IMG/VR virus record: IMGVR_UViG_3300001472_000009
Span: 60,748 to 89,155 of that record
DNA: 28,408 nucleotides
From: a virus
Reading direction: 5' to 3' (one strand)
Positions 3,792-27,193 of the stretch are shown here, in pieces. The stretch's first letter is position 1; every line of letters starts with the position of its first letter. A program made the position numbers and the translations under genes. The notes beneath the pieces were generated by a model, which worked only from the letters and a program-made list of their open reading frames with translations, made no database searches and was not told where the DNA came from.

Positions 3792-4106
3792 ATGCAAACA
3801 CAAAACGATAGCGAAACAATAGTTGATTCATCTTCTAGGACTTCAATAGAACCCCCTAAAAGATACTATGTTGTTATGCATAATGATGATGGTACGCCTA
3901 TCGAATTTGTAGTAAAAATATTAATGGACCTGTACAAACACGAAGAACAAACGGCGACTGACTTAGCAAATAAAATTCACGTAGATGAAAAAGCTATTGT
4001 CGGTATGTTCAATTTAGAAATAGCAGAACAGAAGGTGGAAGAGACTCACGGAGCAAGTAGGGCGCATGGTTACCCATTAACGGTGACATTAGAACAAGCA
4101 GATTAA
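3792..4106 (+). CDS. clpS: ClpS, N-degron adaptor for Clp protease
   Basis: ClpS delivers proteins with destabilising N-terminal residues to ClpA(P). The 104-residue product aligns end to end with bacterial ClpS: a flexible N-terminal extension (1-20), PPKRYYVVMHNDDGTPIEFV, the central helices and the C-terminal YPLTVTLEQAD strand. The degron-binding residues N31, D32, D33 and H63 are present. The gatekeeper Met of E. coli ClpS (M40) is Ile here (I37), a change in the pocket rim that may alter which N-terminal residues fit. The start is backed by the family length and a GTGAG site upstream. It is served by both a sigma70-type and a late promoter. The phage would depend on a host ClpA, since none is seen in this window. 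Confidence 0.94.
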   Translation: MQTQNDSETIVDSSSRTSIEPPKRYYVVMHNDDGTPIEFVVKILMDLYKHEEQTATDLANKIHVDEKAIVGMFNLEIAEQKVEETHGASRAHGYPLTVTLEQAD

Positions 4107-19417: not shown

Positions 19418-19814
19418 GACTTTACTTACAATAGAAAAAGCACTACATAGTAGACTGAAAGCGGAAGATATATCTCCCGTTAGTGTACAAGTATTCCCAT
19501 CATGGGAAGAGGGCTTTAAAGGACACAAAAGAAAAAGAGGTGTCTATGTTATTTTTGATGAAGAAGAAATGATTTATGTAGGGAAGGGCTTTTTCTCTGC
19601 ACGTAATAAAAGTCATTATGACAAAGCAACAAATAAAGCAAATTATAATCCAAAAGGCTGGATATGGTTTAAAGAAAATTATAATTATAGTATTGACAAC
19701 TGGCACCTATTTCTGATAGAATTGAGTAGTGAAATAGATATAACTTTTATGGAAGGCGCATTGATTAAAGATTTGCGTCCAATCGCAAACGATGAGGTAT
19801 ACATTGACAGGTAA
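19410..19814 (+). CDS. GIY-YIG domain protein, probable nuclease
   Basis: The core RGVYVIFDEEEMIYVGKG has G-V-Y and Y-V-G about ten residues apart as in the GIY-YIG domain. FSARNKSH supplies the catalytic Arg, MEGALIKDLRP the metal-binding Glu, and N in PIAND closes the pattern. There is no extra DNA-binding domain, so it is closer to a stand-alone domain than to a homing enzyme. The start is uncertain: ATG 19410 forms the ATGACTAA overlap common in this window, while ATG 19392 adds six residues. It overlaps uvsE by 23 nt. Possible roles are host DNA breakdown or repair beside UvsE. Confidence 0.75.
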   Translation: MTKTLLTIEKALHSRLKAEDISPVSVQVFPSWEEGFKGHKRKRGVYVIFDEEEMIYVGKGFFSARNKSHYDKATNKANYNPKGWIWFKENYNYSIDNWHLFLIELSSEIDITFMEGALIKDLRPIANDEVYIDR

Positions 19815-20817
19815 AGTTGGGTTTGCATGTAAATTCATGCATGAAAATCAAAGTCTCAAACCTAAAGAGTTGAAGGAGATTCAACAGCCACTAAACTTTC
19901 GTGGTACAACTATTAGATGGTTACGAGAACATAAGGAACAATCACAAGAAAAAGTTTACGAACTTGTAGAACATAACTTGAATGCTACAGAAAATCTTAT
20001 TGACTACGTAAGCACACTTCCATTGGAGCAACGTATGTTGCGACTAGGTAGTGATATGTTACCTGCATATACAGAAGTTAATCATCAGCATCTAACAAAA
20101 ACTAATTATATCACTAATTTGATAGCAGATAGACTAAATACAATTGGTGAGAAGGCTAGGGCAAACAATGTTCGTTTATCTATGCACCCTGGACAATTTA
20201 CTGTTCTTGCATCAGACAGACCTGATGTTGTAGAAAATAGTATAAAGGAGTTCGAATACCATGCAGATATCATCAGGTGGATGGGCTATGGCAAGTCGTT
20301 TCAAGATTTCAAATGCAACGTCCATATATCGGGTAGAAAAGGTCCAGAAGGCATCAAAGCAATCCTCCCAAGATTATCCCAAGAAGCGAGAAACACAATC
20401 ACAATCGAAAACGAAGAAATGTCGTGGGGTCTCGATTCTTGCTTAGAACTAGAAAAAGATGTAGCACTAGTGCTAGACATACATCATCACTGGATACACA
20501 GTGCAGGTGAATACATAGGAATAAACGATGATAGAGTTAAACGAGTTATTGATAGTTGGCGGGGTGTTAGGCCTGCTATGCATTATAGTGTTAGTCGGGA
20601 AGATTATATCCCGGAGCATCGACAAGATGTTAGACCAGACTTTCAAAAACTTTTAGAGACTGGACACAAAAAAGCTAAACTACGGGCTCACAGTGACTAT
20701 ATGTGGAATGATGCAGTAAATGAATGGGCAGGTACATTCCGTAAAGATTTCGATATCATGGTAGAAGCCAAATGTAAAAATTTAGCAAGTATTCCTTTTG
20801 AGGAGAGTACAAGATGA
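19792..20817 (+). CDS. uvsE: UV damage endonuclease UvsE/UvdE
   Basis: Nicks DNA 5' of UV photoproducts. The 341 residues form a TIM-barrel with the family's metal-binding segments: RLSMHPGQFTVL, CNVHISG, ITIENEEMSWG, LVLDIHHHWIH, AMHYSVSR, LRAHSDYMW and DIMVEAKCK. The N-terminal KVGFACK strand also fits. Length is close to bacterial UvsE. The ATG is inside the end of the GIY-YIG gene, and the stop overlaps the next small gene by 4 nt. Helps repair sunlight damage, as expected for a surface-water phage, and is probably expressed from the sigma70-type promoter at 19069. Confidence 0.93.
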   Translation: MRYTLTGKVGFACKFMHENQSLKPKELKEIQQPLNFRGTTIRWLREHKEQSQEKVYELVEHNLNATENLIDYVSTLPLEQRMLRLGSDMLPAYTEVNHQHLTKTNYITNLIADRLNTIGEKARANNVRLSMHPGQFTVLASDRPDVVENSIKEFEYHADIIRWMGYGKSFQDFKCNVHISGRKGPEGIKAILPRLSQEARNTITIENEEMSWGLDSCLELEKDVALVLDIHHHWIHSAGEYIGINDDRVKRVIDSWRGVRPAMHYSVSREDYIPEHRQDVRPDFQKLLETGHKKAKLRAHSDYMWNDAVNEWAGTFRKDFDIMVEAKCKNLASIPFEESTR

Positions 20818-25091: not shown

Positions 25092-25195
25092 GTAAAAAAC
25101 TATCAGCAAAAGGCAGAATTAGAAACATTAAAACTGCCGCAAAAAAGTTTAAAAGAAAATTATCTTTTAAAGCAAAGAAAAAAGCGGGTCAATAA
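25088..25195 (+). CDS. Very basic small protein (35 aa)
   Basis: A 35-codon frame of which about 40% is Lys or Arg: MSKKLSAKGRIRNIKTAAKK, then FKRKLSFKAKKKAGQ. Its ends match the overlap style of this region (ATGA in, TAATG out to acpS), and AATGGAGG precedes the ATG. The composition suggests nucleic-acid or ribosome binding. Not assignable further. Confidence 0.6.
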   Translation: MSKKLSAKGRIRNIKTAAKKFKRKLSFKAKKKAGQ

Positions 25196-25608
25196 TGCGA
25201 CATTCACTCAACACAAAAATTCATGGTATAGGTGTAGATATCGTTGAAGTAAAACGAATGAAAGATGCTATAGATAAACATGGCGATAAGTTTGCTATGA
25301 GAATTTTAAGCAAGTTAGAGCATGATAATTATATTGTGTCTCCAAATAAAGCACAGTATCTTGCAAAGTGTTGGGCGGTAAAAGAAGCCTTTGTAAAAGC
25401 AATAGGTACAGGCTTTAAAGGAAACTTTCTTTGGAAGAATATAACATATTTTTCTCCTGCAGGAAGTTTAGGATTAGGTCATCCTCAAGTTAGATATAGT
25501 GATGAAATCAAAAATGATTCATTAATGAATGGAAAAACTGTTCATCTAAGTGTAAGCGATGAACAATCAATAGTAATTGCGTATGTAACTATAGAGGCAA
25601 GAACATGA
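25195..25608 (+). CDS. acpS: Holo-[acyl-carrier-protein] synthase AcpS-like
   Basis: Transfers 4'-phosphopantetheine from CoA to apo-acyl-carrier protein. GIGVDIVEVKRM holds the Mg-binding Asp (D15). AKCWAVKEAFVKAIGTG has the KE..xKA pattern with E64 and K68. The final VHLSVSDEQSIVIAYVTIE strand pair matches the family except that Asp replaces the usual His after Ser. The 137 residues are close to bacterial AcpS, and the substrate ACP is not encoded here, so a host ACP is the likely partner. It starts on the last base of the preceding gene (TAATG) and overlaps the next by 4 nt. AcpS is rarely noted in phages. Confidence 0.88.
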   Translation: MRHSLNTKIHGIGVDIVEVKRMKDAIDKHGDKFAMRILSKLEHDNYIVSPNKAQYLAKCWAVKEAFVKAIGTGFKGNFLWKNITYFSPAGSLGLGHPQVRYSDEIKNDSLMNGKTVHLSVSDEQSIVIAYVTIEART

Positions 25609-25904
25609 CAGACAATATAATACAATTAAGCAAATATAAAAAAGACTTATGGGAACCACCTAGTACAGTGGAAGATGAAGTTGAAGAAATTACAATAGAA
25701 TTCATTCAACAAGCTATCGAACTACTAAATGAATATGGTATGGATCCATATGATACAAGTCTTGGAAATGAAATGGTTGCGGTATCAATGTTGTTTAGAG
25801 CAATGCTTGACAGACAATACGGTAGAGAGAATCATTTACAAACTATGTTAGATGTAATGACTAAAGATATGAAAACAACAGGAGAGGGTAAAGATGATGA
25901 ATAA
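25605..25904 (+). CDS. Hypothetical phage protein (99 aa)
   Basis: An acidic helical protein, starting MTDNIIQLSKYKKDLWEPPS, with VEDEVEEITIEFIQQAIELL in the middle and MVAVSMLFRAMLDRQYGREN later. No known motif. Overlaps acpS by 4 nt and the GreA-like gene by 11 nt. Its composition is like that of small T4-like phage proteins that bind host proteins, but this is not a function call. Confidence 0.65.
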   Translation: MTDNIIQLSKYKKDLWEPPSTVEDEVEEITIEFIQQAIELLNEYGMDPYDTSLGNEMVAVSMLFRAMLDRQYGRENHLQTMLDVMTKDMKTTGEGKDDE

Positions 25905-26448
25905 TACTATTATGGGATTTAAGGTACAACAAACTGATAAATATGCAAGTCAAAATAATAAAAGTGAGAATAAAAATAATATGGACTTAATAAGTGCAAA
26001 AGGCAGAGACGATTTATACAGGAAGATTTTAGAAACACAAGATAAGAGACCTGAAATTACTGACCGTATTCAAGCCGCAAGACTACAAGGTGGCTTAGAA
26101 GAAAATGAGGAACTTTTGGTTGCATTGGAAGATATGCAACGAGTAGATATGGAAGTTCATAGATTACAACAGATGCTTGAAAAAGTTACTGTAATGGATC
26201 CACTCCCAAAAGGGAAGTATAAAAAAGTGTGTTTCGGTGCAACTGTAAAGATTGAAAACTGTGATACTGGCAAACAAATACAATATAAGATTGGTGGAGA
26301 ATTCGACTCAGATCCAAATAATGGCATCATTTCCTTCAAATCTCCTTTAGGAGCCGAGTTAATTGGTTCAGAAAAAGGGGATATTATCGCACTTATGCGA
26401 CCTGCAGGTGACATAGAGTACGAAGTACTTAGAATTTTTGTACCTTAA
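25894..26448 (+). CDS. GreA/GreB-like transcription factor with altered coiled-coil tip
   Basis: GreA enters the RNA polymerase secondary channel and stimulates cleavage of backtracked RNA. After about 30 extra N-terminal residues, residues 52-185 follow GreA: RPEITDRIQAARLQGGLEEN for the coiled coil, MLEKVTVMDP, then the C-domain with VCFGATVKI, YKIGGEFDSD, ISFKSPLGAELIGSEKGD and YEVLRI. At the tip E. coli has GDLKEN (D41, E44); here it is GGLEEN, so D41 is Gly67 while E44 is kept as E70. Loss of that Asp usually impairs cleavage. It may instead block or modify polymerase. The start could be ATG 25894 or 25897; GGAGAGGG lies upstream. Confidence 0.85.
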   Translation: MMNNTIMGFKVQQTDKYASQNNKSENKNNMDLISAKGRDDLYRKILETQDKRPEITDRIQAARLQGGLEENEELLVALEDMQRVDMEVHRLQQMLEKVTVMDPLPKGKYKKVCFGATVKIENCDTGKQIQYKIGGEFDSDPNNGIISFKSPLGAELIGSEKGDIIALMRPAGDIEYEVLRIFVP

Positions 26449-26452
26449 AAAC

Positions 26453-26480
26453 TTGACAAATCTGCGAATCATGTTATAGT
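26453..26480 (+). promoter_or_regulatory. Sigma70-type promoter upstream of sleB-like gene
   Basis: TTGACA (26453-26458), a 16-nt spacer and TATAGT (26475-26480) with TGT extended -10. Lies in the 64-nt gap after the GreA-like gene. Confidence 0.7.
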
Positions 26481-26512: not shown

Positions 26513-27193
26513 ATGTTAAGATTTCTAAAGATGATGGGTAACGGTATTGTTACTTTAATGAATATAACTACCATAGGTGTATTAATGGCGTTCGCCGCCT
26601 TAGCTACAGGTACAACAATCATGTCAGATGAAACAAAACATGATGATTCTGTTGAGATAGTTATCCCTGTACAAATAGACCCAACATCACGTATTGATAT
26701 GGAATATTTCTTAATCGATCCTTATAAATTTAAAGATGAATTTTGTTTAGCACAAAATATCTTTTTTGAATCAAGTGTTGATAACAAAGCAGGAATGGCC
26801 GCAGTAGCAGACGTTGTTCTCAATCGTGTAAAACATTCTTACTATCCTAATACTATTTGTGAAGTAGTATATCAAGCTAAAATGAAAGAAAGCTGGAAAA
26901 CAAAACAGTTTCCTGATTTACAGGATAGTGAACGTAAGTATATTCCAGTTAAACACAGATGTCAATTTAGTTGGTACTGTGATGGTAAATCAGACGATAT
27001 TCCATTAGGCTCAGAGAATTGGGTTAAAGCACAGATGATTGCTTGGGACATTATGCACAATGATGGACTACGAGGTATCACAGAAGGTGCAACACACTAT
27101 CATGCTACATATGTTAAGCCACGTTGGGCTAGTCAACATAATATGGACTTAGTTGGTCGAATTGGTCTACACATTTTTTATCGTTGGAACTAA
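26513..27193 (+). CDS. SleB-type cell wall hydrolase with N-terminal membrane anchor
   Basis: A lytic-transglycosylase-like (Hydrolase_2) domain. Residues 16-35 form a hydrophobic helix after a basic start, a signal anchor. The domain begins at CLAQNIFFESS with the catalytic Glu86. MAAVADVVLNRV, Y..TICEVVYQ, RCQFSWYCDGK, GATHYHATYVKPRWA and VGRIGLHIFYRW then follow in family order. AGAGGC precedes the ATG. Unlike the GH19 endolysin it has a sigma70-type promoter and no late octamer, so it may be made early, acting on the wall from the membrane (local remodelling or superinfection control) rather than only at lysis. Confidence 0.88.
   Translation: MLRFLKMMGNGIVTLMNITTIGVLMAFAALATGTTIMSDETKHDDSVEIVIPVQIDPTSRIDMEYFLIDPYKFKDEFCLAQNIFFESSVDNKAGMAAVADVVLNRVKHSYYPNTICEVVYQAKMKESWKTKQFPDLQDSERKYIPVKHRCQFSWYCDGKSDDIPLGSENWVKAQMIAWDIMHNDGLRGITEGATHYHATYVKPRWASQHNMDLVGRIGLHIFYRWN

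Follow-up and report, generated by a model that had tools for sequence, protein, structure and literature searches.

The gre-like gene and its neighbourhood

The window, by which we mean the whole 28,408-nucleotide stretch analysed, is the final 28.4 kb of an 89,155-bp virus record. An intact open reading frame for a protein of 184 amino acids (P0001) occupies positions 25894..26448 (+ strand), exactly where a preliminary description had placed a GreA-like factor, and a Shine-Dalgarno-like sequence (AGGAGAGGG; 25880..25888, +) lies ahead of its ATG. The open reading frame list, Pfam and the nearest-structure match identify the gene as gre-like. No second Gre was found in the 89,155-bp record.

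The product begins with an N-terminal extension, residues 1-29 (25894..25980, +), which was delimited by alignment with its relatives and is disordered in the AF2 model. The following domain, residues 35-97 (25996..26184, +), is an antiparallel coiled coil matching GreA_GreB_N (PF03449; 39.6 bits, cut-off 24.5), with AF2 helices at 35-49, 52-65 and 68-97 and further backing from Foldseek. Residues 110-184 (26221..26445, +) form the C-terminal globular, RNA polymerase (RNAP)-docking domain, and the match to PF01272 (GreA_GreB; 77.5 bits, cut-off 26.9) places the protein in this superfamily. Among solved structures, E. coli GreA (1GRJ; E 9e-19) is the closest; the AF2 model gave TM-scores of 0.80 (by target length) against RNAP-bound Gfh1 (3AOI) and 0.78 against 1GRJ.

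Assignment to narrower families failed. The NCBIfam GreA equivalog cut-offs were missed (best score 106.8 bits versus 167; TIGR01462, 104.1 versus 139), and the Asp-x-x-Glu tip of GreA orthologues (D41/E44) reads G67/E70 in all 11 members of the clade described below. DksA/TraR proteins are characterized by a C4 zinc finger and a DxxDxA tip; the Pfam scan of P0001 returned no zinc finger, and the tip is GxxExE. Rnk pairs a short coiled coil with the GreA_GreB C-domain; the coiled coil here is full-length and the Foldseek match to Rnk is weak (3BMB, TM 0.45 by target). PHROGs has no family for P0001 and PADLOC reported none.

Upstream, a gene for a 99-residue protein (25605..25904, +) overlaps the start of gre by 11 bp. 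It has no match to a known family, and its product is modelled as a small helical bundle with weak structural matches. The downstream neighbour encodes a SleB-type cell wall hydrolase (26513..27193, +; PF07486, 83 bits). The order upstream gene, gre, SleB hydrolase and further conserved genes holds at nine of 11 loci; at the other two an acpS gene takes the upstream place. The T4-type late promoter TATAAATA occurs twice in the window versus 5.5 expected, giving no signal, and sigma70-type matches are overall at chance level. One strong sigma70-type match (TTGACA-16-TATAGT, with TG before the -10) lies between gre and the SleB gene at 26453-26480.

Elsewhere the window carries housekeeping-type genes (1-1586, 2386-2823, 3792-4106 and 25195-25608), among which are a ClpX-like ATPase, IF-3, ribosomal protein S21, HSP20, ClpS and an acpS-like phosphopantetheinyl transferase. 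Also present are TctA, the large membrane subunit of a tripartite tricarboxylate transporter, here in a phage (6792-8300; PF01970, 293 bits), and the UV damage endonuclease UvdE (19792-20817; PF03851, 141 bits).

A conserved clade with a rebuilt tip

Scans of viral sequences, which took in 2.9 million contigs, brought the window protein into a clade of 11 distinct sequences from T4-type large phages. Among the relatives are those on a 342,607-bp contig (87% identical) and a 42-kb contig (66% identical), and a protein shared without change by a second 342-kb contig and a 113-kb contig. One scan used the C-terminal domain alone and was thus unable to favour any tip; five loci (four distinct sequences) were first found in this way, and every member of the clade has GG[LVI]EENEE. 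The N-terminal tail (about 25-30 residues) is likewise common to all 11, with F9 and DKY (residues 15-17) kept. The preliminary description had called a ~30-residue extension extra; it is indeed absent from GreA, but its conservation in all 11 distinct relatives marks it as real coding sequence and not as filler.

The rebuilt tip comprises residues 66-74, GGLEENEEL (26089..26115, +), where GreA has GDLKENAEY. Alignment pairs the catalytic D41 of E. coli GreA with G67 (codon GGC, 26092..26094, +) and E44 with E70, and the Asp to Gly change first noticed in the sequence thus stands. Compared with cellular and other large-phage GreAs, the clade shows D41G, K/S43E, A46E, Y48L/F and R/K52L, while R37, E44, N45 and E47 are retained; helix 1 carries a one-residue deletion. 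The statement that the rest of the coiled coil and the C-domain are kept is therefore accurate for the presence of both domains and for the Ser-Pro pair S150-P151 (26341..26346, +), which is invariant across the clade, but not for positions 43, 46, 48 and 52 or for the length of helix 1. In MtbGre the equivalent Ser is required for RNAP binding, which S127E abolishes (PMC3132773).

The new tip has four acidic residues to the three of GreA, E69 and E72 having been gained. These two could coordinate metal differently, so that "disabled" may be too strong a word for the tip. One explanation, which we consider unlikely, is that the protein is still a cleavage factor that keeps late transcripts moving, its acids having moved such that the second Mg is held by E69-E70 or by E70 together with E72/E73. 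The four acids within nine residues are all invariant in the clade, the equivalents of E44 and N45 remain, and TFS1 cleaves with an adjacent D94-E95, a TFIIS-type DE pair (PMC5715097); moreover, other large-phage GreAs carry a canonical GDLSEN tip, so that phages do use GreA of the cleavage type. Mutants of the known factors speak against such a rearrangement. In MtbGre only the Asp is essential, D43N alone abolishing cleavage and E46R keeping it (PMC3132773), and replacing D41 of E. coli GreA with N or A removes most or all cleavage despite an intact E44, while the mutants still bind RNAP and, at high dose, inhibit elongation (PMC3078854). Furthermore, Tyr48, implicated in holding backtracked RNA (PMC3132773), and the basic residue at 52 are both Leu here.

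Residues 66-67 and 69-73 are invariant among the 11 distinct sequences, and EENEE is the sole stretch of the protein in which three or more consecutive residues never vary. Pairwise dN/dS within the clade is 0.07-0.22, indicating purifying selection. From this value and from the tip being the longest invariant run, we conclude that the tip is maintained by selection and has not decayed. Loss of a catalytic residue can in general be a sign of decay; a neutral or decaying copy of a host gene, its function gone, is nonetheless highly improbable given this strong selection and the conservation of gene and gene order across wide divergence. Over the 90 nt at the start of gre (25894-25983) synonymous changes seem scarce in some pairs (dS 0.08 versus 0.45-0.72 elsewhere) but not in others, and the counts are tiny.

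Tips of cellular and other phage Gre proteins

The tip Asp is present in 80/80 of the nearest cellular GreAs, collected by a tip-independent search, and in all 90 Gre domains (GreA and GreB) read from 100 Pseudomonadota genomes; every one of them reads GD. For this sample of nearest GreAs and Pseudomonadota, the Asp-less tip is found in 11/11 clade members versus 0/170 cellular Gre tips, a difference beyond chance. A phage profile scan of 84,980 genomes, with patterns for the tip plus a coiled-coil stretch, revealed no relative.

Comparison of phage GreA-like tips, which the preliminary description had proposed as a check, shows GG[LVI]EENEE fixed in the clade and different tips in other phages. 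A second Asp-less group of large-phage GreAs has Gly (L012 5001-5468, L013 5001-5468 and L062 3758-4225) or Thr (L063 3695-4219) at this position; this group, with the tips GGVSEN, GGVVEN and GTLEEN, is nested among Asp-keeping phage GreAs. A tree calculated with the tip columns removed keeps the two Asp-less groups apart, each with full support, and the Asp was probably lost separately in two large-phage groups. One common origin for all Asp-less phage GreAs is less likely (forcing the two groups together costs 23 lnL units) but not formally rejected (AU p 0.089). The GreA of Salicola phage SCTP-2, likewise without the Asp, falls with the window clade (SH-aLRT 100), on a long branch. The remaining matches in phage records were mostly bacterial genome contigs or unannotated, unverified records of bacterial appearance, and the tips read from them were canonical. 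Sigma70 region-2 proteins are also found in GreA-bearing large phages, namely G003 and G004 (the records of L013 and L022) and SCTP-2.

Within the Gre family, the protein is a real and conserved variant carried by large phages, and apparently an undescribed one; in a search of the open literature we found no description of a Gre factor whose catalytic Asp is missing throughout a phage group. A broader proposal, which we offer tentatively and hold to be more doubtful than otherwise, is that large phages repeatedly took a bacterial GreA and dropped its catalytic Asp, giving a class of secondary-channel regulators whose T4-type members, with their acid-rich GGxEENEE tip and N-terminal docking peptide, would couple host RNAP to the gp55 programme. 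If this is true, the repeated removal of the Asp defines a previously undescribed class of phage regulators.

Proposed action on host RNA polymerase

Genes for the T4 Gp23 capsid protein and for a gp55-type late sigma are present in both 342-kb relatives (the sigma scored 270 bits to phrog_12791 in the one scanned), and no match to RNAP beta' was obtained in any of 10 phage records, several of these being fragmentary. Host RNAP is thus the expected target. The seizing of host RNAP by phage proteins is a well-studied subject, and the present protein may help to explain how phages of the large T4 type handle host transcription with no polymerase of their own.

The reading to which we give about an even chance is that T4-type large phages acquired a GreA and made of it a regulator of host RNAP, one that binds the enzyme and no longer stimulates cleavage. 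The protein would be expressed in infected cells from an operon of the phage. Judging from the Ser-Pro pair and the fold, its C-terminal domain would dock on the rim of beta' next to the secondary channel, into which the coiled coil would reach. Lacking the Asp by which the second catalytic Mg is held, the tip is expected from the published D41 mutants to stimulate cleavage slightly or not at all, and its acids near the active centre may slow or retune catalysis; host GreA, GreB and DksA might also be kept from the channel, as with Gfh1 and Rv3788. Both are non-cleaving Gre relatives that act as RNAP inhibitors and as competitors of Gre factors (PMC4598747), and overexpressed GreA D41A/E44Y is still toxic (PMC7527559). 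Gfh1 and Rv3788 inhibit via their tip acids, and inhibition is thus not readable from the phage sequence; RNAP binding, loss of cleavage, and inhibition or competition are all inferred for the phage protein.

The earlier suggestion that the protein fills the secondary channel and may inhibit or compete survives as the likeliest reading, to judge from the clade-wide lack of the Asp, S150-P151, the modelled Gre fold and the reliance on host RNAP. A specific part in the switch from sigma70 to late promoters, raised in the same place, finds no support in these results. The like rebuilding of the tip in every relative found suggests that the phage plugs or retunes host RNAP rather than rescuing stalled transcripts. 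The family would also be a natural test of a Gre factor minus cleavage, for which until now there have been laboratory point mutants, Gfh1 and Rv3788.

Binding at a site of the same class would also suit an initiation factor of the DksA/TraR or lambda Orf73 kind, remodelling host promoters (e.g., lowering rRNA synthesis) in favour of phage transcription. Phage TraR homologues such as Orf73 act in this manner and raise phage yield (PMC9239242), and no DksA/TraR-family zinc finger was present in five large-phage records searched, which leaves the niche open. Even so, this is rather improbable: of the three positions in the DxxExA tip motif common to Gre and TraR/DksA (PMC9239242), the clade has lost two, G standing for D and E for A, and the modelled fold is that of Gre and not of DksA.

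A partner of phage or host origin probably binds the disordered N-terminal tail, in which an F/DKY motif is conserved, although this step is speculative. In a separate reading the Gre body would be an RNAP anchor only, with the tail recruiting a phage protein such as the product of the overlapping upstream gene or the gp55/clamp machinery. The retention of F9 and DKY in all members would fit such an adaptor, as would the upstream gene, which overlaps gre in the window and adjoins it at nine of 11 loci. It seems to us a poor prospect, as tail recruitment alone leaves the rebuilding of the tip unexplained, and a search of the other proteins of a 342-kb relative for the tail motif returned, besides gre itself, one loose internal match. 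A query with HTVC008M gp33, run without a positive control, had no hit among the phage records.

In comparison with known systems, lambda Orf73 and TraR are, like the phage protein, secondary-channel factors borne by mobile elements and directed at host RNAP (PMC9239242); they differ in being DksA-type zinc-finger proteins and not Gre. TFS4 of Sulfolobus is a relative of a cleavage factor in which a changed tip made an RNAP inhibitor, and it is linked to virus infection (PMC5715097); however, its fold is the unrelated TFIIS zinc ribbon, its tip has lysine, and it is host-encoded and archaeal. SCTP-2 gp168, annotated as "GreA-like", is a large-phage GreA without the tip Asp that groups with the window clade, but it has another tip (ASLSTEDESEL), no N-terminal tail, a very long branch and another neighbourhood. 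E. coli GreA (1GRJ) shares the two-domain fold of coiled coil and C-domain, the Ser-Pro docking loop and the E44/N45 equivalents; the phage protein, about 28% identical, differs in Asp41 to Gly, in positions 43, 46, 48 and 52, in a helix 1 shorter by one residue, and in its N-terminal tail.

The best reading by analogy is a Gfh1- or Rv3788-like mode of action reached by convergence. Gfh1 of Thermus has the Gre fold and several tip acids, and does not cleave, as may also hold for the phage protein, whose model superposes on RNAP-bound Gfh1. Further marks of Gfh1 are its inhibition of catalysis, its competition with Gre and a C-domain switched by pH. The phage sequence is nearer to GreA (71 bits to 1GRJ versus 34 bits to Gfh1), GGxEENEE is not the tip of Gfh1, and the gene is here phage-borne. 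Rv3788 of M. tuberculosis, in contrast, keeps both tip acids, which it needs for inhibition (PMC4598747), and is cellular; like the phage protein it is a Gre homologue without the tip Tyr, and its cleavage activity is undetectable (PMC3132773).
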